Below are positions 33,481-43,990 of a stretch of DNA of 64,000 bases, one piece after another (the first letter of the stretch is position 1; every line of letters begins with the position of its first letter). The notes beneath the pieces were generated by a model, which had not been told where the DNA came from, did no database searches, and saw only the letters and a program-made list of their open reading frames with translations. Origin of the DNA: Krasilnikoviella flava (GTDB lineage: Bacteria; Actinomycetota; Actinomycetes; Actinomycetales; Cellulomonadaceae); assembly GCF_900167525.1 (NCBI RefSeq), contig NZ_FUZQ01000003.1, forward strand, positions 310,001 to 374,000, written 5' to 3'. The translations under genes and the position numbers were made by a program.

Positions 33481-35391
33481 ATGTCGTACGCACCGAAGGA
33501 CCCGACCCCGGCGACGGCCGACGCGCTCGCCGCAGCCCGCACCCGGTACGCGCTGGACGACCGGGAGGACTACGAGACCGCCCGGCGGGGCAAGGTCGCC
33601 GACTTCCCCGGGGGGCAGGTACGGCTGGCGGACGGCACGGTCAGCTACGACGTCGGCCGGCTCGCGTTCCTCGACGGCGACGACCAGGAGGCGCCGGACT
33701 CGGTGGACCCCAGCCTGTGGCGCCAGTCCCAGCTGGTGCACGAGGCGGGCCTGTACCGGGTGGTCGACCGGATCCACCAGGTGCGCAACATCGACATCGG
33801 GAACGTCACCGTCGTCGAGGGCGACGGCGGGCTGATCGTCATCGACTGCTCGTCGTCCGTCGAGGCCGCCGCGGCGGCGCTGGCGCTGTACCGGCAGCAC
33901 GTGGCGGACAAGCCGGTGGCCGCCGTGATCTACACGCACACCCACATCGACCACTACGGCGGCGTGAGGGGCGTGGTCGACGAGGCCGACGTCGCGGCGG
34001 GCCGGGTGCCGATCATCGCGCCCGGCACGGTCGCGAGCTTCGACAAGCACGCGATCGGGGAGAACGTCATCGCCGGGAACGCGATGAGCCGCCGCGCGGG
34101 CTACGCGTTCGGCAGTCTCCTCGAGCGCGATCCGCGCCAGGCGGTGTCGTGCGGCATCGGGTCCGCGACGGCGGACGGCCCGACCGTTTCGTACATCTCT
34201 CCCACCGACCCGATCACGGAGACGGGGCAGCGCCGCGTCATCGAGGGGCTGACGTTCGAGTTCCTGTACGCCCCGGACACCGAGGCGCCCGAGGAGATGC
34301 ACATCTGGATCCCCGAGCTGAAGGCGCTCACCTGCGCGGAGAACGCGAACCACTCCCTGCACAACATCCAGACGCTGCGGGGCGCCCGCACGCGCGATGC
34401 CCGGAACTTCGCGCGGTACCTGGACGAGACGCTGGTGCGATGGGGCGACGAGGCGGAGGTGCACTACGGGCCGCACACCTGGCCGGTCTGGGGCAACGCG
34501 AAGATCGTGGAGTTCATCGAGTCCCAGCGCGACACGTACAAGTACCTGCACGACCAGGCGCTGCGCCTGGCCAACAAGGGGTACACGCCGCTGGAGGCGG
34601 CCGAGGTCGTGGACCTGCCGGAGGCCCTGGGCCGTCGATGGTTCAACCGCGGGTACCACGGCACGGTGCACCACGACGTGCGCGCCGTGTTCGCGAAGGA
34701 GCTGGGCCTGTGGGACGGCGACCCGGTGACCCTGCACCCGCACCCGCCGGTGGACACGGCGACCCGGTACGTGGCCGCCTTCGGCCGCGACGCGATCCTC
34801 GCGGAGGGCCGTCGCGCCGTCGACACCGGCGACTACCGGTGGGCGGCCCAGGTGCTGCACCACCTCGTCTTCGCGGACCCGGACGACGTCGAGGCGAGGG
34901 AGCTGCAGGCCGACGCCTACGAGCAGATGGGGTACCAGGCCGAGGGCCCGCAGTGGCGCGGCATCTTCCTCACGGCGGCCCGGGAGCTGCGCGAGGGCGT
35001 GCTCGAGGCCGCCTTCGCCACGGCCAGCCCGGACTCGGTGAGCCACATGCCCGTGGACATCCTCTTCGACTTCGTCGCGGTGCACGTGATCGGCGACCGG
35101 GCCGCCGACGTCGACCTGCGGTTCGACGTCGAGTTCACGGACCTCGGCGAGACCTGGTCGGCCCGGGTGCGCCACGGCGTGCTCAACGCCCGGCGGGGCG
35201 CGAGCCCGGACGCGCCGCTCACGCTGCGCGCCCCGCGGCCGCTGGCCGCGGCGGCCCTCCTGCAGCCGGCGGCCGCGGGGCGGCTCGCCGCGGCGGGGAA
35301 GGTCGCGCTCGACGGCGACGCCGCGGTGCTCGACGGGCTGGCCGCCGTCCTCGACGAGTTCGACCCGAACTTCCCGATCGTCACGCCCTGA
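33481..35391 (+). CDS. Alkyl sulfatase 2 (metallo-beta-lactamase fold)
   Basis: 636 residues, clearly paralogous to the gene at 17957-19846 over its full length. Zinc motif THTHIDH at about residues 151-157, second ligand segments in CAENANHSLHN and YGPHTWPVWG (the first copy has ASHHWPTWG here, so one His differs). C-terminal SCP2-like domain ends in FPIVTP. ATG with GGAGG 5 bases upstream. It is divergent from the decayed LacI gene, which may once have regulated it. The stop overlaps the convergent P-type ATPase gene by 11 bases, exactly as in copy 1. Confidence 0.92.
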   Translation: MSYAPKDPTPATADALAAARTRYALDDREDYETARRGKVADFPGGQVRLADGTVSYDVGRLAFLDGDDQEAPDSVDPSLWRQSQLVHEAGLYRVVDRIHQVRNIDIGNVTVVEGDGGLIVIDCSSSVEAAAAALALYRQHVADKPVAAVIYTHTHIDHYGGVRGVVDEADVAAGRVPIIAPGTVASFDKHAIGENVIAGNAMSRRAGYAFGSLLERDPRQAVSCGIGSATADGPTVSYISPTDPITETGQRRVIEGLTFEFLYAPDTEAPEEMHIWIPELKALTCAENANHSLHNIQTLRGARTRDARNFARYLDETLVRWGDEAEVHYGPHTWPVWGNAKIVEFIESQRDTYKYLHDQALRLANKGYTPLEAAEVVDLPEALGRRWFNRGYHGTVHHDVRAVFAKELGLWDGDPVTLHPHPPVDTATRYVAAFGRDAILAEGRRAVDTGDYRWAAQVLHHLVFADPDDVEARELQADAYEQMGYQAEGPQWRGIFLTAARELREGVLEAAFATASPDSVSHMPVDILFDFVAVHVIGDRAADVDLRFDVEFTDLGETWSARVRHGVLNARRGASPDAPLTLRAPRPLAAAALLQPAAAGRLAAAGKVALDGDAAVLDGLAAVLDEFDPNFPIVTP

Positions 35392-38122
35392 CCCGGCGCG
35401 ACCGGGCCCTGCCGACCGCCTTGACCACCTCGACGAGCAGGAAGACGACGAGCGCCAGGCCCGCCGTCTTGCCCCACTCCTCGAGGCCGATGGGGGCGGC
35501 GGCGAACCAGTCGTGCATGAACGGGGCGTACACGAACACGCACTGCAGGGCGAGCAGGGCGGCGGCGGAGACCCAGATGACGCGGTTGCCGCGCAGCACG
35601 TCCAAGGTGAGGCTCGAGCGGTCCAGGAACCGGCAGTTGAACAGGTAGGCGAGCTGGCCCAGGGCCAGCATCGTCACGGCCGTGGTCTGCGCCTCGGCGA
35701 GGGGCGCGCCCTGGGCCCGCTCGGCATAGAAGACGAACAGCGTGGCGCCGCCGATGAGCAGCGACACGACGAGGATGCGGCGCACGAACGCGGCGTCGAG
35801 GATCGACGCCTTCGGGTCGCGCGGAGGCCGGGACATGATGTCGGGCTCGGCCCTCTCGTACGCGAGCCCGAGGGACAGGGTCACGGCCGTGATCATGTTG
35901 ATCCACAGCACCTGCACCGGCGCGAGCGGCAGCACCAGGCCGAACAGCACGGCCACGAGGATGACCAGCGACTGCGCGCCGTTCGTCGGCAGCAGGAAGA
36001 GCACGGACTTGCGGATGTTGTCGTAGATCCGCCGCCCCTCCTCCACGGCGCGCTCGATGGTGGCGAAGTTGTCGTCGGCGAGCACCACCTCGGCGGCGTC
36101 CTTCGTCGCCTCCGTGCCCTTGATGCCCATCGCGACGCCGACGTCGGCCTGCGTGAGCGCGGGGGCGTCGTTGACGCCGTCCCCCGTCATCGCGACCACC
36201 TCGCCGTGCGCCTGCAGCGCGGAGACGATGCGGATCTTGTGCTCCGGGCTGGTGCGGGCGTACACCGACACGTCGCGCACGACGGCGCGCAGCTGCTCGG
36301 TGCTCATCGCCTCCAGCTCCGCGCCGGTGAGGACGGCGGGGGTCTCGCCGGGCTCGGGGGCGTCCACGATGCCCATCTCGCGGCCGATCGCCACGGCGGT
36401 GCCGGCGTGGTCGCCGGTGATCATCTTGACGCCGATGCCGGCGTCGCGGCACTGCGCGATGGCGTCGATCGCCTCCGGCCGCGGCGGGTCGACGATGCCG
36501 ACCAGGCCGCACAGCTCGAGGCCGGACGCGACGTCGTCGACGTCGAGGGCCGTCGTGCCCTCCTCGGCACGGCGGCGGGCCGCTGCCAGCACCCGCAGGC
36601 CGCGGCCGCCGATCTCGTCGATCTGCGCCTCCCAGAACGCGCGGTCCAGCGGTTCGGCCGAACCGTCCGCGGCGGTCTGCGTGTCGCACCGGTCCAGCAC
36701 GCGGTCGGGCGCCCCCTTGAGGTGCACGACCGGCCCGACGTCGGGCCCCCGGTCCAGGGTGGCCATGAACTTGTTCTCCGACTCGAACGGCACGAGGCCG
36801 ACCCGCGACCAGCCCGTGGTGTCGAACCCCGCCTTCATGCCGAGGCTGCGCAGCGCACCCTCCGTCGGCTCGCCGACCAGCCGCCAGTCGTCGCCCTCCC
36901 CGGGCACGACGCGCGCGTCGTTGCACAGCATCATCACGGCGACCACGGCGGCGAGGTCGCGGTCCCCGGCGAGGTCCGCGTGCCGGTGCTCCCCGGCGGC
37001 CCCGGGGAGCGTGAGCTCCCCGACCGGCGCGTACCCGGCGCCCTCGACGTCGAACGCGCGGCCGGCGGTGCGCACCCGGCGCGCGGTCATCTCGTTCTTG
37101 GTGAGCGTGCCCGTCTTGTCCGAGCAGATCGTCGTGACGGAGCCGAGCGTCTCGACGGCGGGCAGCTTGCGCGTGATCGCGCGACGGCGCGCCATCTGCT
37201 GCACGCCGAGCGCCAGCGTGATCGTCACGAGCGCGGGCAGGCCCTCCGGGACGGCGGCGACGGCGAAGCCGATGGACGCCGAGACCAGCTCCGGCACGGA
37301 GAAGTCGTGCACCACCCGGCCGATGACGACCATCACCACGGCCATGCCCAGGATGAGCACCGCGAGCAGCTTGCCGAACCGGTCGAGCTGCTTCGTCAGC
37401 GGCGTCTCCAGGCTCGCGACCTCGGAGATCATCGTCTGGATGCGGCCGATCTCGGTGCGCTCGCCGGTGGCCGTGACCACGCCGACGCCCTGGCCGGCGG
37501 CGACCAGGGTGCCGGAGAACAGCATGCTGGTGCGGTCGCCCACCCCGGCGTCGGGGTCCACGACGTCGACCCGCTTGCTCGCCGCGACCGACTCCCCCGT
37601 GAGCGCCGACTCCTCGACCCGCAGGTTGGTGGCCTGCAGCAGCCGCACGTCGGCGGGCACCCGGTCGCCGGAGCGCACGCGCACGACGTCGCCCGGCACG
37701 ACGTCGTCGGCGTCGACCTTGGCCCACGCGCCGTCGCGGCGGGCCTCGGCGTGCACGGACAGCATCTGGCGGATGCCGTCGAGCGCGCTCTCCGCCCGCC
37801 CCTCCTGGATGAAGCCGATCGCCGCGTTGACCACCGCGACCAGGAGGATCACCGTGAAGTCCACCCAGTCGCCCAGGATCGCCTTGAGCACCGCGGAGAC
37901 CAGCAGGATGTAGATGAGCACGTCGTCGAAGTGCACCAGGACCCGCTTCCACAGCGGGTCCTTCTCCGGCGGCGGCAGCCGGTTGGGCCCGACCTCCGCG
38001 AGCCGCGCCGCGGCGTCGGCAGCGCTCAGGCCGCCGTCGTCCGTCCGGAGCGCGGCGAGCACCTCGGCGGGCGGTCGTGACCAGGGGGCCGGGTCCGTGG
38101 CGACGTCCTGCGCAGATCCCAT
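35381..38122 (-). CDS. P2-type cation-transporting ATPase
   Basis: 913 residues. Actuator motif ALTGESV, M4 motif [11 protein letters not shown], phosphorylation site DKTGTLTKN (Asp about 335), nucleotide-binding [13 protein letters not shown], hinge [12 protein letters not shown], and six C-terminal helices. The PEGL motif places it with Ca2+/Na+-like P2 pumps. The M6 segment [15 protein letters not shown] does not clearly give the calcium ligand set, so the ion is uncertain (CtpF-like pumps of actinobacteria are the nearest I recall). No heavy-metal-binding domain. Separated by 47 bases from the flavoprotein gene upstream on the same strand. Confidence 0.9.
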
Positions 38123-38169
38123 GGCGCCATTCCACCCGCGATGGCCCGACGGCGCGCGGCGACCGACGA

Positions 38170-39876
38170 TCAGGCGTCCGCGCCGAACTCCTGCGCGCGC
38201 AGCCAGGCGAGGTGGGTGTGCACCAGCGGCAGCACGGACGCCCCCTCCCCGCTGGCGGACGCGACCCGCTTCATCGAGCCCGCGCGCACGTCGCCGACGG
38301 CGAAGACCCCGCGCAGCGTCGTCTCCAGGCTCGCGGGCGGGCGGCCGTCCACCCACCGCTCCTGCGGCACGTCGCGGCCGGTGAGGACGAAGCCGTGCTC
38401 GTCACGGGCGAGGCCGCCGGGCAGCCAGCCGCAGTCGGGCTCCGCCCCCAGCAGGCAGAACAGGCCGTCGGCGTGCGTCTTCGACCGCTCGCCCGTGTCG
38501 AGGTCCTGGGTGACCAGCCACTGCAGGGCGCCCTCTCCCCCGCCGTCGACCACCGACGTGCGCGGCCGCACCGCGATCGTCGGCGTCGCGGCGATCTCCC
38601 GCACCAGGTAGTCCGACATCGTCTCGGCGATGCTCCCGCGGCGCACGAGGATCGTCACCGACCCGGCGAACTTCGCCAGGTGCACGGCGGCCTGGCCCGC
38701 CGAGTTGCCGCCGCCCACCACGACCACGTCCCGGTCGGCCATCTCGCGCGCCATCGAGCTCGCGGCGCCGTAGTGCACCCCTGCGCCGACGAGGTCGTCG
38801 ACCCCCGGCACCCCGAGGCGGCGGTAGGAGACGCCGGTCGCGAGCACCACCGTGCGGGCGCACAGCTGGGCGCCGTCCACGTGCACGTGGTGGTGCTCCG
38901 GCTCGTGGGCGGGGCCGGGCTCGATCCGCGCCACCGGGCGGCCGGTGTAGAAACGGGCGCCGAACCGCCCCGCCTGCACGCGCGAGCGCTGCGCCAGCCG
39001 CATCCCCGAGATCCCGCGCGGGAAGCCGAGGTAGTTGCGGATCATCGAGCTCGAGCCGGCCTGGCCGCCGATCGCCTCCCGCTCCAGCACCACCGTCGAC
39101 AGCCCCTCCGACGCCGCGTACACCGCGGCCGCCAGCCCTGCCGGGCCCGCCCCGACCACCACGACGTCCGCGATCTCCCCGGGCGGGATGGAGTCGTACC
39201 CGCCGTACATCGCCTCCGCCACGGCGGACGGCGTCGCGCCGGTCAGCACGCGACCCGCGAACGTGCGCACCACCGGCAGGGCGGCGCCCGGGCCCGCCGC
39301 GTCGAGGATCGCGCGCGCCGCGGCGTCGTCCGGGGCAAGCACCCGGTTCGGGACGCCGAGCCGCTCCAGCAGGTCGCGGACGGCGGCCGCCACGCGGTCG
39401 CCGGGCTCCGCGACGACCTCGGTGGACGTCACCGTGGGGCGGGCCACCGACCAGCCCCACTCCGACAGCAGCTCGACCAGCGCCACGTGGAACTCCTCGT
39501 CGCGCGCGCCCCGCGGGATGCCGACGAACGTGTCCATGTCGCGGCGCAGCAGCGCCGCCCGCATCTCGTCCAGGGCGTCGGCGTACTCGTCGCCGGAGAT
39601 CAGCGCCACCCGCCGCGCGGTCGACACGACGGCCGGCACCTGGTGCAGGAGGTCGACGCCCGCCGAGTCCGGCAGGTGGCGCTCCGCGGCGATCATCGCC
39701 ACCGGCACCCGGTCGGCCACCAGGTCGCGCAGCCGGTCCAGCGCCTCGCCGGTGGTGCCCACCAGCACGATCCGGTAGTCCCGGTCGTAGCGGGCGCGGA
39801 ACTCCTGCTCCACCAGCGGCGCGTGCGCGTCGGCGACGAGCAGGATCACGGGACGGTCGGCAGGGCGCTCGGGCAT
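38170..39876 (-). CDS. Pseudo-receiver fused to thioredoxin-reductase-like flavoprotein
   Basis: 568 residues. Residues about 8-125 look like a response-regulator receiver, but the N-terminal acidic pair is reduced (VADAH) and the phospho-Asp position holds Glu65 (AAERHLPDSAG). A short alpha/beta segment (about 150-215) links to a thioredoxin-reductase fold: FAD motif GAGPAGLAAAVYAASEGL (near 240), NADPH motif GGGNSAGQAA (near 387) and C-terminal FAVGDVRAGSMKR. The redox CxxC expected after the GVPG loop is missing; the site reads GVHYGAASSMA. It should bind FAD and NAD(P)H but cannot reduce thioredoxin by the classical route. ATG at 39874-39876. The UBP zinc finger, an Hpt-like protein and a response regulator lie just upstream. 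Confidence 0.88.
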   Translation of the reverse strand: MPERPADRPVILLVADAHAPLVEQEFRARYDRDYRIVLVGTTGEALDRLRDLVADRVPVAMIAAERHLPDSAGVDLLHQVPAVVSTARRVALISGDEYADALDEMRAALLRRDMDTFVGIPRGARDEEFHVALVELLSEWGWSVARPTVTSTEVVAEPGDRVAAAVRDLLERLGVPNRVLAPDDAAARAILDAAGPGAALPVVRTFAGRVLTGATPSAVAEAMYGGYDSIPPGEIADVVVVGAGPAGLAAAVYAASEGLSTVVLEREAIGGQAGSSSMIRNYLGFPRGISGMRLAQRSRVQAGRFGARFYTGRPVARIEPGPAHEPEHHHVHVDGAQLCARTVVLATGVSYRRLGVPGVDDLVGAGVHYGAASSMAREMADRDVVVVGGGNSAGQAAVHLAKFAGSVTILVRRGSIAETMSDYLVREIAATPTIAVRPRTSVVDGGGEGALQWLVTQDLDTGERSKTHADGLFCLLGAEPDCGWLPGGLARDEHGFVLTGRDVPQERWVDGRPPASLETTLRGVFAVGDVRAGSMKRVASASGEGASVLPLVHTHLAWLRAQEFGADA

Positions 39877-40163
39877 GCGGTCAGGGTAGGGGGCGGCGCA
39901 ATCCTCAGCAGATCTTGAGCCAGTCCTGGGCCGACCCGGGGGTGGCCCCGAGGTTCGCGTCGCAGGATCGACTCGTTCGACCCCACGATCTCCTCCCGGA
40001 GCACCATGACCACCTCGACGTCCGGTCCCCTCGGGGCCCCCGCGCGCACCTCCCCCTGGGCGCACGGTCAGGCCTTGCGGTCGGCGAGACCGACGGTGCT
40101 CCGGGAGGAACTCCCCCGGCAGGCGTCCGGCGTCGTCCCCGGCCTGCCCGCAGGGCGCCCGTC

Positions 40164-40553
40164 ATGACGCCCCGCATGACGCCCGGCCTCACCCCCGGCA
40201 TGGCCGTCGCGTGGCAGTCGCTCGTCGACGACCTCGACGGCGACCGCGCGGCGGTCGCAGGCTTCGCGGGCTCCTGGGCGGGCCTCCTGCCGCACCGCAC
40301 CGGCATGCTCATCGAGGCGCTGGGGCACGCCGACGCCGACGCCGCGCGCGACGTGCTGCTGACCCTCACCTGCACCGCGGACATGCTCGGGGTGGACCGG
40401 CTCGCCGACGCCGCCTCGCGAGGCCTCGACGCCCTCGAGGACGAGGGGGTCGACGGCGCGCGGAAGCACGTCGAGCACATCGCGGACGAGGCCCGGACCG
40501 CCGCGATCCACGTGGCCGGCGCCCTCGCTCAGGAGAGCTGGTCGAACCGGTAG
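40164..40553 (+). CDS. Hpt-like helical protein lacking the phospho-histidine
   Basis: 129 residues, nearly all helical. Residues 35-95 have the spacing of a histidine phosphotransfer domain (helix, then LLTLTCTADMLGVDRLADAA where Hpt proteins read AHxLKGxxxxLGaxxL). The phospho-His aligns with Leu66 and the Lys-Gly pair with Thr-Cys, so phosphotransfer is not expected. Resemblance is structural pattern only and needs a profile search. The 3' end overlaps the response-regulator gene by 25 bases on the opposite strand. In-frame ATGs at 40164 and 40176 precede a Met-Thr-Pro-rich start. Confidence 0.55.
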   Translation: MTPRMTPGLTPGMAVAWQSLVDDLDGDRAAVAGFAGSWAGLLPHRTGMLIEALGHADADAARDVLLTLTCTADMLGVDRLADAASRGLDALEDEGVDGARKHVEHIADEARTAAIHVAGALAQESWSNR

Positions 40554-41290
40554 CCCACGCCCCGCACCGTGCTGATCCACCGCGGCGACGCCACGTCCTC
40601 GCCGAGCTTGCGGCGCAGGTTGGCCAGGTGCGCCTCCACGCTGCGCCGGTCCTGGTCGGTGATCGGTGTCCCGGTGTCGTACTCGTCCTCCCACAGCACG
40701 CGGACGAGGGCGTCCTTGGAGATCGCGCGCCCGGGCGCGGCGACGAGCGCGGCGAGCAGGTCGAACTCGCTGCGCGTGAGGTGCACCTCGACGCTGTCGA
40801 CGGCCACCGTCCGGGCCGCGACGTCCACGACGAGCCCGTCGGACACCGCGGGCACGGCCGCGGCGCCCACCGCGGGCACCTGCCGGCGCGGCCGCCGGAG
40901 CATCGCCTCGATCCGGGCCCGCAGCTCCCGGGGCCGGAACGGCTTCGTCTGGTAGTCGTCGGCGCCCGCGTCGAGACCCATGAGGGCGTCGATCTCGTCG
41001 GTGCGCGCGGTGAGCATCACGACGTACGTGTCGGACACCGCGCGGATCCGCCGGCACACCTCGAAGCCGTCGATGTCGGGCAGGCCCACGTCGAGCGTCG
41101 TGACCAGCGGGTCGAAGGTGCGCACGAGCTCGACACCCTCCCGCCCCGACGCCGCGGTGCGCGTGGCGAAGCCCGCCTGCGACAGCACCGCGTCGAGGAG
41201 GTCGCGGACGTCCGGATCGTCCTCCACGATCACGGCCGTGCGCTCGCGGGCGTCCTCGACGCCGTTCAGATGGTGGGGTCCGGCGAGCAT
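40529..41290 (-). CDS. OmpR/PhoB-type response regulator
   Basis: 253 residues. Receiver with acidic residues in IVEDDPD (23-25), phospho-acceptor Asp67 in TTLDVGLPDIDG, Thr94 and Lys116, all canonical; then a winged-helix DNA-binding domain (about 150-250, with SVEAHLANLRRKLG recognition helix and GVGYRF wing). No histidine kinase is encoded in the surrounding 10 kb, so it is an orphan here. ATG at 41288-41290; the first 15 residues may be extra. Its divergent neighbour is the UBP zinc-finger gene, 99 bases away. Confidence 0.92.
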   Translation of the reverse strand: MLAGPHHLNGVEDARERTAVIVEDDPDVRDLLDAVLSQAGFATRTAASGREGVELVRTFDPLVTTLDVGLPDIDGFEVCRRIRAVSDTYVVMLTARTDEIDALMGLDAGADDYQTKPFRPRELRARIEAMLRRPRRQVPAVGAAAVPAVSDGLVVDVAARTVAVDSVEVHLTRSEFDLLAALVAAPGRAISKDALVRVLWEDEYDTGTPITDQDRRSVEAHLANLRRKLGEDVASPRWISTVRGVGYRFDQLS

Positions 41291-41389
41291 GACGACACGC
41301 TAGCGGGACGTCGCCCCTGGCGCAGCGCACGCCGACCCTCCCTAGACTCGCCGACGGCGGTGAACGGACCCGCCGGAGAGGGCGTCACC

Positions 41390-41680
41390 ATGACGAGCAC
41401 GTGCACGCACCTGGACCAGATCGACCCCGTCGCACCCGAGACGCTCGGCGAGTGTCCCGAGTGCGTCACCGCCGGCGGCACGTGGGTGCACCTGCGCGCC
41501 TGCCTGGAGTGCGGGCACGTCGGGTGCTGCGACTCCTCCCCCGCCCGGCACGCGACAGCGCACTTCCACGCCACCGCGCACCCCGTGATGCGGTCGATCG
41601 AGCCCGGCGAGCACTGGGGCTACTGCTTCCCGGAGGACCTGCTCGTCCCCGGGCGGGACATGCCGGGATCCGTCGGCTGA
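41390..41680 (+). CDS. UBP-type zinc-finger protein
   Basis: 96 residues, a stand-alone zf-UBP domain. Zinc ligands are C5, H7, C22, C25, C38, C41, C46/C47, H54, H58, H60 and H64; the signature LRACLECGHVGCCDSSPARH is nearly invariant in the family, and EPGEHWGYC follows. In eukaryotes this fold binds the free Gly-Gly tail of ubiquitin. Bacteria such as this have no ubiquitin, although actinobacterial Pup also has a di-Gly near its C-terminus; a link is speculation. I recall zf-UBP genes near receiver/thioredoxin-reductase fusions in other actinobacteria, so the proximity here is probably meaningful. Confidence 0.9.
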   Translation: MTSTCTHLDQIDPVAPETLGECPECVTAGGTWVHLRACLECGHVGCCDSSPARHATAHFHATAHPVMRSIEPGEHWGYCFPEDLLVPGRDMPGSVG

Positions 41681-41699: not shown

Positions 41700-42263
41700 T
41701 CAGCCCTGCGCGCCCCGACGGGCGATGCCGCGGTTCGTCGCGGCGATCGCCGTGCGCTCGTCCTCGGACAGCCCGCCGCGCCGCAGGATCCGGCCCAGCA
41801 CGTCGCTCTTGAGCAGGAGGTACTCGTCGATGTCGGCGGCCTCGACGCCCGCCCGTCGCTTGACCTCGCCGTACTCGTCGCGCAGGGCGTCGTCGGCCCG
41901 CAGCGCGTCCCGGACGGCGAGGTGGTTGCGCAGCGCGAGGCAGCCCTCGACGGCGACGTAGGTGTGGGTGGGCGCGAACCGCTCCGGCGCCTCGAAGGCG
42001 TACCGGCCCGCGATGCCGAGGTCGCCGCGCGGCTCGAAGCCGAGGCCGCCGAGGGCCGCCGACGCCGCCTCGACGTCGGGCCCGGCGACGACGACGTCGA
42101 CGTCGATCACCGGCTTGGCGGCCAGGCCCGGGACGGCCGTGCTGCCCACGTGCTCGATGCCGCGGTACGGCACCCGCGCCGCCTCGAGCGCCTGCGCGTA
42201 CGCGGCACGGAGCTGCTCGAAGCGTGCGGGCCAGCCCGGGTGGTACTCGACGACGGTGATCAC
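41700..42263 (-). CDS. GrpB-family (nucleotidyltransferase-fold) protein
   Basis: 187 residues. VEYHPGWPARFEQLR at the start and EHVGSTAVPGLAAKPVIDVDVVV are hallmarks of the GrpB/UPF0157 family, which has a minimal nucleotidyltransferase fold with GS and DxD motifs. Some related proteins are dephospho-CoA-kinase-associated. Function of the stand-alone form is unknown. GTG start at 42261-42263. Confidence 0.9.
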   Translation of the reverse strand: MITVVEYHPGWPARFEQLRAAYAQALEAARVPYRGIEHVGSTAVPGLAAKPVIDVDVVVAGPDVEAASAALGGLGFEPRGDLGIAGRYAFEAPERFAPTHTYVAVEGCLALRNHLAVRDALRADDALRDEYGEVKRRAGVEAADIDEYLLLKSDVLGRILRRGGLSEDERTAIAATNRGIARRGAQG

Positions 42264-42326: not shown

Positions 42327-43901
42327 CTAGGCGCCCGCGCCCGACGTCGTGCCGTCCGTGGCGGCGTCGTCGGAGTCCTCCTTCGAGGCGCCGCCGGCGG
42401 TGCCGAGCCCGCCCTGGCCCTGGCCGGCCTGAACCGCGTCCACGGCGAGCAGGTCGGAGACCGACTGCGACTCGCTCTTCAGCGTGTCCGCGTCCACCAG
42501 GTCGGACGCCTGGTCGGCGAGGGTCGCGGTGAGCGTGTCCAGGTAGTCCTGCGCGTCACCGGTGCCGTAGATCGACGCCGTGAGGTCCTCCACCGCGGAC
42601 TCGTAGGCGGCGTTGAAGTCGTCGTTCTCCAGGAAGCGCGTGACGAGCGGGTTCTCCTGGCCGCCGACGCCGCCGCCCCCGCCCGGGCCGCCGCCCTGCG
42701 CGCCGTCAGGTCGCGTCATGCCCTCCGGCAGCTCCATCCCCTCGGGTGCGCCCGAGGGGCGCGCACCACCCTGGAGGCCGGGGCCACCGCCCATCGTGCC
42801 GAACCCGCCGTACGAGAGGTTCTGGTCCCACGCCACCACCTCCATGAGGCCGGACTCGGGGTCGTCGTGCAGGTACGCGTTGTTGCCGGGGCCGTCGATG
42901 TCGTCGGAGTTCGCCACGAGGTCCTGCGCCGCGAGGTACCGGGCGAAGGAGTCGACGTCGAGGTGGTCGCCCAGCTTCGCGGCGAAGTCCGCGTCCGACG
43001 AGTTGTTGACGAACTCGAGGAACGCCTGCAGCGGCTCGTACGCCGCGTCGTCGTCCGTCGACCCCGCGCTGTCGTACTTCGCCTCGAACGACTCGGCGTA
43101 GGCCGCCGCGTCGTCCTTGACCGCCCAGTCGCCGTCGGCGTCCGCCTTGTACGTGATGCCGCCGTCCGGGTAGGCGTCCTCGTTCCACAGGTCGTCGTCC
43201 GGCAGGTCGATCACCAGGCGCAGCTGCTCGTCGCCGCCGTTCACGCTGAACCGCGTGTAGGTCGCCTGCTCGGCGGTGACGTCCGCCAGCTCCAGCACCT
43301 TGAGCGCCACCGCCTCGTTGAGCGACGACTCGGTGTTGTTGCCGCGCACCACGAAGTCAGCGCGCCCGTCGTGCTCCTGGCCGTCCACGTCCTTGTCCAG
43401 GCGGATCAGCCACGGCAGGCCCGCCGGGTCGTCGGCCGACGCGTTGCCGTCGCCCTCGTCCGCGCCCGGCTGCTGCTGGCCCTCGTCGTTCGCCGCGCCG
43501 TCATGGGCGGCGGCGTCGTCGTCCGCGCTGGCCTGCGGCGCGACCGCGTCGCCACCGAGTCCCCGCAGGCTGGAGTTGCCCTTGAGCCGCAGCCCGACGT
43601 CGTCGTACTCGTCGCCGTCGATGGTGACGCTGGCGCTGATCCAGTCCTTGTCCCCCGTGTCCGCGAAGGTGTCGAGCATCTCCTGGTAGTCGTCCTCGTC
43701 GTACTCGACGGAGACCGTGTGCACGGCGGAGGTGTCGAAGAAGTCGCCGGCGTCGTCCGCCGACGCGCTCGCGTCGCACGCGGCGAGGGTGCCGGCGAGC
43801 GCCACGGCACCGGCCCCCGCGACGAGGCGCCGCGACGACGAGGAGGGGTGGAGGCCGCCGGTGGCGCGGCGGCGGGGGACGGTCGGGCGGCTGCGCATCA
43901 T
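42327..43901 (-). CDS. CotH-like lipoprotein
   Basis: 524 residues. Long N-terminus, hydrophobic helix and lipobox with Cys42 (LAGTLAAC), so the protein should be membrane-anchored outside the cell. The CotH-type kinase-like domain starts near VSVEYDEDDYQEML and has VGLRLKGNSSLRG (the family's RGNSS-type element), LIRLDKDV and VAWDQNLSYGG as candidate ATP/metal-site segments. Two low-complexity insertions are unusual: an Asp/Ala/Gln-rich stretch inside the strand after LRGLGG and a Gly/Pro/Met-rich stretch near residue 395. Spore-coat CotH phosphorylates proteins; whether this one does is unknown, and the host is probably not a spore-former. Confidence 0.82.
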   Translation of the reverse strand: MMRSRPTVPRRRATGGLHPSSSSRRLVAGAGAVALAGTLAACDASASADDAGDFFDTSAVHTVSVEYDEDDYQEMLDTFADTGDKDWISASVTIDGDEYDDVGLRLKGNSSLRGLGGDAVAPQASADDDAAAHDGAANDEGQQQPGADEGDGNASADDPAGLPWLIRLDKDVDGQEHDGRADFVVRGNNTESSLNEAVALKVLELADVTAEQATYTRFSVNGGDEQLRLVIDLPDDDLWNEDAYPDGGITYKADADGDWAVKDDAAAYAESFEAKYDSAGSTDDDAAYEPLQAFLEFVNNSSDADFAAKLGDHLDVDSFARYLAAQDLVANSDDIDGPGNNAYLHDDPESGLMEVVAWDQNLSYGGFGTMGGGPGLQGGARPSGAPEGMELPEGMTRPDGAQGGGPGGGGGVGGQENPLVTRFLENDDFNAAYESAVEDLTASIYGTGDAQDYLDTLTATLADQASDLVDADTLKSESQSVSDLLAVDAVQAGQGQGGLGTAGGASKEDSDDAATDGTTSGAGA

Positions 43902-43990
43902 GCCGCACACGTCACCATCCCGGCCTGGGAGCACCCTTCGTGACCGATGGGAGTTCGATGGCGCGGGCACCACGACCGACTGAGACCCCC

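Follow-up and report, generated by a model that had tools for sequence, protein, structure and literature searches.

One sensing system or two adjoining modules? A receiver-fused flavoprotein, a UBP zinc finger and a histidine-less Hpt protein in Krasilnikoviella flava

When signalling and redox proteins that keep their folds but lack active residues are encoded side by side, do they form one sensing system, or do separate systems merely touch? The question is raised by four adjoining genes, here called A to D, in a 64,000-nucleotide window of Krasilnikoviella flava (contig NZ_FUZQ01000003.1, positions 310,001 to 374,000; our contig C6), from a 4.85-Mb genome with its named close relatives in the genus Isoptericola. 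Gene A encodes a receiver-like domain fused to a flavoprotein resembling thioredoxin reductase (TrxR), B a protein with the fold of a histidine phosphotransfer (Hpt) domain, C an OmpR/PhoB-type response regulator and D a stand-alone UBP zinc finger. A sequence-only reading had described these genes and proposed that they make up a single system working without phosphotransfer. Domain calls, coordinates and conserved homologues bear out the description. As to the proposal, we see somewhat better than even chances for a different answer, namely that the four genes belong to two functionally separate modules that touch in three Isoptericola species, A with D serving redox control of antiport and B with C forming the output end of a phosphorelay. 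Each part of both modules is of a known kind.

The distribution of the genes separates the two pairs. Among 16 sampled Isoptericola genomes, a count that includes the present genome, A occurs in 7 and B in 8, and only 3 have all four side by side. The B-C pair is found without A in 5 of these genomes and A without B-C in 4, and B-C without A-D also occurs in other genera. Two genomes (G072 and G116) have A and D as divergent neighbours with a gap of only 110-120 bp, and B-C separates them in G145, G149 and the present genome; in Isoptericola, B-C is an insertion between A and D. Adjacency of the four genes, conservation of their substitutions and retention of the arrangement in three Isoptericola species could still be read as one phosphorylation-independent sensing system, in which one regulator is intact and three signalling folds are inactive. 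We consider this very improbable and reject it because the B-C and A-D distributions differ and because the intact relay to which B-C belongs is still encoded in this genome, at another place. The two-module model builds on what was observed of domain content, conservation, gene association, kinase linkage and this distant relay.

Where the four genes do stand together, A is 91-92% identical between the three species and protein divergence is 8-22%. The 3' ends of the convergent genes B and C share 25 bp, a gap of 99 bp separates the divergent genes C and D, and one of less than 300 bp the divergent genes A and B. These shared intervals, and the retention of the arrangement at such divergence, would fit a regulatory capture in which C has controlled transcription of A and D in the three species since B-C was inserted between them. 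That the arrangement is common to three species only speaks against it, and we regard such a capture as unlikely. Homologues conserving the gene were found for each of A, B, C and D, and all four genes are under purifying selection (NG86 ratio of nonsynonymous to synonymous substitution rates, dN/dS, about 0.11-0.38). Local decay into pseudogenes is ruled out by this selection together with the family-wide substitution patterns.

The AlphaFold2-type model of B (predicted local distance difference test score, pLDDT, 89.6) is an Hpt bundle, and the best PDB matches found by Foldseek are Hpt proteins, with template modelling scores of up to 0.78 and no E-value below 0.001. The window's own B has no match to the Pfam Hpt profile (PF01627), and orthologues exceed its cut-off of 24.6 bits with 26.2 and 29.7, so B belongs to the Hpt proteins by its fold and by the family score of its orthologues. 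The phospho-accepting histidine is absent from the B family, with leucine in 16 and serine in 1 of 17 aligned homologues; the leucine that had been pointed out is real, but it is not a loss that occurred in this genome. Pseudo-Hpts of this kind are rare, as the histidine is missing in 0.9% of Hpt domains (PMC12632262). At 16 of the 17 B loci an orthologue of C (61-82%) is convergent with B, and C itself has a receiver and a Trans_reg_C winged helix that are both canonical in Pfam, as in OmpR/PhoB regulators. It had been described as lacking a kinase, which is true locally but not in the genome. Five other Isoptericola have a single locus with a hybrid histidine kinase, a receiver, a histidine-bearing Hpt, B and C, and contig C7 of the present genome carries orthologues of the hybrid kinase (75% identity), the receiver (74%) and an Hpt with the canonical histidine. 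The kinase and the Hpt were present in all five tested genomes with B-C and absent from all three tested A-bearing genomes without B-C. Because the sister loci join kinase, receiver, Hpt, B and C, and contig C7 keeps the orthologues, C is most likely the separated, relocated output end of a phosphorelay. It would presumably be phosphorylated by the contig C7 relay of hybrid kinase, receiver and true Hpt, and B, having no histidine to carry the phosphate, would probably bind C or the relay receivers as a competitor or as an adaptor or tether. An apparently kinase-less regulator beside a histidine-less Hpt can therefore be the relocated end of an otherwise intact phosphorelay. A separate observation is that B-C is flanked in other genera by a GT2 glycosyltransferase and an MMPL transporter (L213, L215-L218, L220), which hints at a role in the cell envelope.

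What, then, does the flavoprotein do? The AlphaFold2 model of A (pLDDT 83.9, 38 sequences) consists of receiver-like alpha/beta, thioredoxin-like and TrxR-like domains, in this order. In Foldseek, AhpF is the best match along almost all of A, and thioredoxin reductases are the best for its C-terminal part; the score against TIGR01292 (thioredoxin-disulfide reductase), 186 bits, is well below the curated cut-off of 343. The three domains and the motifs GGQAG.SS.I.NYLGFP and KRVAS.GEG place A in a family of Rec-TrxR-like flavin adenine dinucleotide (FAD) oxidoreductases, in which the GxGxxG and nicotinamide adenine dinucleotide (phosphate), NAD(P), motifs are invariant. The CxxC motif is absent, in the TrxR part as in the thioredoxin-like domain, from A and from all 153 family sequences, so that its absence was correctly noted but cannot be called a loss in this genome. 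We regard A as a probably active NAD(P)H-FAD oxidoreductase with the low-molecular-mass TrxR fold. Its own clade, a group with 100% support on the tree of the TrxR part, comprises 88 sequences from Isoptericola, Promicromonospora, Myceligenerans, Nocardioides, Kocuria, Gordonia, Williamsia and others. Cys482, which aligns by eye with the threonine of the TrxR PNT motif, is found in 83 of these 88 and in none of 45 other receiver-type members, which carry threonine or serine, and Arg413, in the NAD(P)-binding region, is found in 86. Both residues speak for a chemistry that is retained but altered in the clade, and a new redox or cofactor role for them is possible. A frequent position of the A gene in Nocardioides and its relatives, one that is inherited on the chromosome, is beside truA and the rpoA-rplQ ribosomal cluster (L152-L201).

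The receiver of A has no match to PF00072 in Pfam; its fold is kept in the model and its DD/D/T/K active site is lost. Alignment confirms glutamate (Glu65) in place of the phosphorylated aspartate, as had been reported, and the acidic pair, the threonine and the lysine are missing as well. Within the clade of 88 the position holds Glu in 66, Asp in 13, Gly in 5, Gln in 3 and Ser in 1, and it is Glu in all 20 closest relatives; like the missing CxxC and the leucine of B, the substitution is thus conserved and not peculiar to this genome. Because these substitutions are conserved and not random decay, the receiver of A is very probably used without phosphotransfer. To this extent the idea of a system free of phosphotransfer survives; it fails for C, whose probable phosphorelay is encoded on contig C7. 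Alternatively, Glu65 could be a phosphomimetic that locks the receiver in its active state, since glutamate can stand in for phosphoaspartate in certain response regulators and replaces the aspartate of pseudo-receivers more often than any other residue does (PMC12632262), and its invariance in the 20 closest relatives agrees with this. The partner threonine and lysine are also lost, however, and the site is occupied by Asp, Gly, Gln or Ser in 22 of the 88 members of the clade, which makes a locked state quite improbable.

Across the family, the input domain appears in three types: an intact receiver, accompanied by a neighbouring kinase with a domain resembling cyclic nucleotide (cNMP)-binding domains (Streptomyces, Nostoc, Deinococcus and others), an N-terminal cNMP-binding domain (Rhodococcus, and a Rhizobium copy that aligns with this type), and a degenerate receiver as in A. 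Among 133 receiver-type proteins, a kinase is adjacent for 25 of 25 with an intact DD/D/T/K set and for 0 of 108 without, several of the latter missing only the threonine or part of the set. Kinase-linked receiver, cNMP domain and kinase-free pseudo-receiver make the family a natural series for how pseudo-receivers work.

The zinc finger D is the usual genomic partner of A. It matches the UBP profile, and the Cys/His ligand pattern is visible across homologues. In 246 Actinomycetota genomes, UBP was found in 56, the A family in 51 and both in 41 (odds ratio 49), and the own-family sample has 46 genomes with both, of 54 and 57; the odds ratios of the two samples are 44-49, with p-values inflated by genome relatedness. 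The two genes lie no more than 3 kb apart in 14 of the 246 genomes against about 0.2 expected. Neighbouring pairs are found repeatedly, with three different architectures of A and on proteobacterial and actinobacterial plasmids (Rhizobium, Rhodococcus and Streptomyces). The partnership is widespread and apparently undescribed. In PGAP, the annotation pipeline, both the A family (as FAD-dependent oxidoreductase) and the UBP proteins already have names; descriptions of the fused A protein, of bacterial UBP-oxidoreductase pairs or of UBP-antiporter fusions were not found in the open-licence literature, which is weak evidence of novelty, and the A family is not discussed in the part of a review on Deinococcus thiol reductases that we consulted. 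UBP zinc fingers of eukaryotes are readers of ubiquitin tails. Many bacteria carry such fingers, as the Actinomycetota sample illustrates, and the strong link to one flavoprotein family and the recurrent one to ion antiporters suggest a concrete, testable role for them.

Deinococcus ficus and two Actinomycetota encode Na_H_Exchanger proteins that carry a UBP domain at their C-terminus, and in two Isoptericola metagenome-assembled genomes an antiporter of the Na_H_Exchanger family lies between A and D, directly beside D. An NhaA-DsbA fusion is encoded within 5 kb of A at 13 of 138 loci, among them all seven from Kocuria, Agrococcus, Pseudoclavibacter and Dermabacter, and usually tail to tail with the A-family gene in the first three genera; the 13 also include Isoptericola loci and loci with other A types. 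Because UBP is fused to or beside CPA-type antiporters and A is repeatedly near NhaA-DsbA, antiport is the likely output of the A-D module. For its working we infer an enzyme activity, an electron acceptor, an adaptor and a target, just as the role of B as competitor was inferred above. A would oxidise NAD(P)H via FAD and hand the electrons to an external partner and not to an internal CxxC. Its N-terminal domain would tune this activity, and in the clade of A, with its kinase-free pseudo-receiver, the input could now come from a ligand, from contact with a protein or from the redox state itself. D would couple A as an adaptor to a membrane antiporter, and the output would most likely be redox control of cation/proton antiport, by analogy with KefF-KefC. 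That A-family flavoproteins and UBP fingers form an undescribed redox-control module for CPA-type and NhaA-DsbA antiporters in several phyla, with an interchangeable sensory domain, is a proposal we make tentatively; if true, it would give bacterial UBP fingers a role free of ubiquitin.

Several observations weigh against this account. Within the clade of A, UBP adjacency is frequent only in Isoptericola, and outside this genus most members have neither an adjoining UBP gene nor an antiporter, so both links are partial. Some of the adjacency of A with UBP or antiporter genes may be vertical inheritance of gene order, and at the majority of UBP loci that are not near A, blast searches with three query types found no antiporter. 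In NhaA-DsbA, the thioredoxin domain may be exposed outside the membrane, where a cytosolic flavoprotein could not reduce it directly. Finally, the tree of the TrxR part shows a single change of receiver state together with kinase linkage, so that their association has no independent replicates and we make no claim of repeated co-loss of kinase and receiver residues. A could also be a plain soluble NAD(P)H oxidoreductase with the pseudo-receiver as a structural or dimerisation domain and with incidental or lineage-specific UBP and antiporter neighbours. Most clade members do stand alone or in vertical contexts such as truA/rplQ, and evolution is faster in the receiver than in the catalytic part (NG86 dN/dS 0.25-0.36 against 0.11-0.20). 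We think this rather doubtful, as the genome-level co-occurrence with UBP argues against it and the antiporter adjacency recurs in unrelated A clades. Among the remaining neighbours (Table 1), the P-type cation ATPase adjoins A also in some other Isoptericola (L032, L036) and is a possible member of its module. The GrpB-family and CotH-kinase-family genes that follow D show no sign of belonging to either module.

Table 1. Positions of the genes and domains discussed (window positions unless a contig or locus is named)
Feature	Position	Strand	Description	Basis
A	38170-39876	-	pseudo-receiver + Trx-fold + TrxR-like flavoprotein, 568 aa	Pfam Pyr_redox_2, model, alignments of 20 and 153 relatives
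A, receiver-like domain	about 39442-39855	-		
A, Trx-fold domain	about 39199-39429	-		
A, TrxR-like domain	about 38179-39174	-		
A, Glu65 codon	39682-39684	-		
B	40164-40553	+	Hpt-fold protein, Leu at phospho-His position, 129 aa	model, PDB matches, 17 homologues aligned
C	40529-41290	-	canonical OmpR/PhoB-type response regulator, 253 aa	PF00072 93.3 bits, PF00486 75.6 bits
D	41390-41680	+	stand-alone UBP zinc finger, 96 aa	PF02148 50.3 bits (cut-off 22.7)
P-type cation-transporting ATPase	35381-38176	-	directly downstream of A	Pfam Cation_ATPase N and C, E1-E2_ATPase
GrpB-family gene	41700-42263		after D	
CotH-kinase-family gene	42327-43973		after D	
Likely upstream relay of C	G000:C7:540418-543637 (L227)		hybrid PAS-HisKA-HATPase-Rec kinase, single-domain receiver, true Hpt	
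UBP-Na_H_Exchanger fusions	L236:3282-5195, L248:3321-5195		two Actinomycetota	
UBP-Na_H_Exchanger fusion	L081:2219-4255		Deinococcus ficus, TrkA_N domain between	
NhaA-DsbA near A-family gene	L143-L149, L056, L032, L035, L111, L047, L048			

Among known systems, A shares with AhpF and the low-molecular-mass thioredoxin reductases the TrxR fold and the FAD and NAD(P) motifs, and with AhpF also an N-terminal thioredoxin fold. It differs from them in having no CxxC in either part, and from AhpF in carrying a receiver in place of one of its thioredoxin domains. B recalls AHP6, the pseudo-phosphotransfer protein of plants, which also has an Hpt fold without the phosphorylated histidine beside a working phosphorelay; B, however, is bacterial, has leucine at the site and is convergent with an OmpR-type regulator, and inhibition by B is an analogy only. 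KefF is a small quinone reductase from a family other than that of A. What it shares with A is the proposed logic, in which an NAD(P)H flavoprotein is ancillary to a cation/proton antiporter: as an NAD(P)H quinone reductase, KefF activates the K+/H+ antiporter KefC (PMC10224563), whereas no UBP finger takes part there and the antiporter link of A is known from gene fusion and neighbourhood only. Bacterial pseudo-receivers (Bourret et al. 2025, PMC12632262) likewise keep the receiver fold without the phosphotransfer residues, most often with glutamate at the aspartate position, but the output of A is a flavoprotein, and thioredoxin is unmentioned in the text of that paper. The nearest counterparts come from the family itself. 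In Streptomyces fungicidicus (CNQ36_RS32175-32165; FAD-dependent oxidoreductase in PGAP) the same three-domain flavoprotein without CxxC has a UBP partner, but its receiver is intact, a histidine kinase with a cNMP domain lies in the operon, and threonine replaces Cys482. The Rhodococcus pyridinivorans pair OQN32_RS25680/25685 (cyclic nucleotide-binding domain-containing thioredoxin-disulfide reductase + UBP) has the core without CxxC and the adjoining UBP gene, and differs from A in its N-terminal cNMP-binding domain, which stands in place of the receiver, and in its setting among chaperone genes, since on plasmid pA the UBP gene and the flavoprotein gene follow a dnaK-grpE-J domain-cbpM-clpB-trxA stress-chaperone operon (L075).

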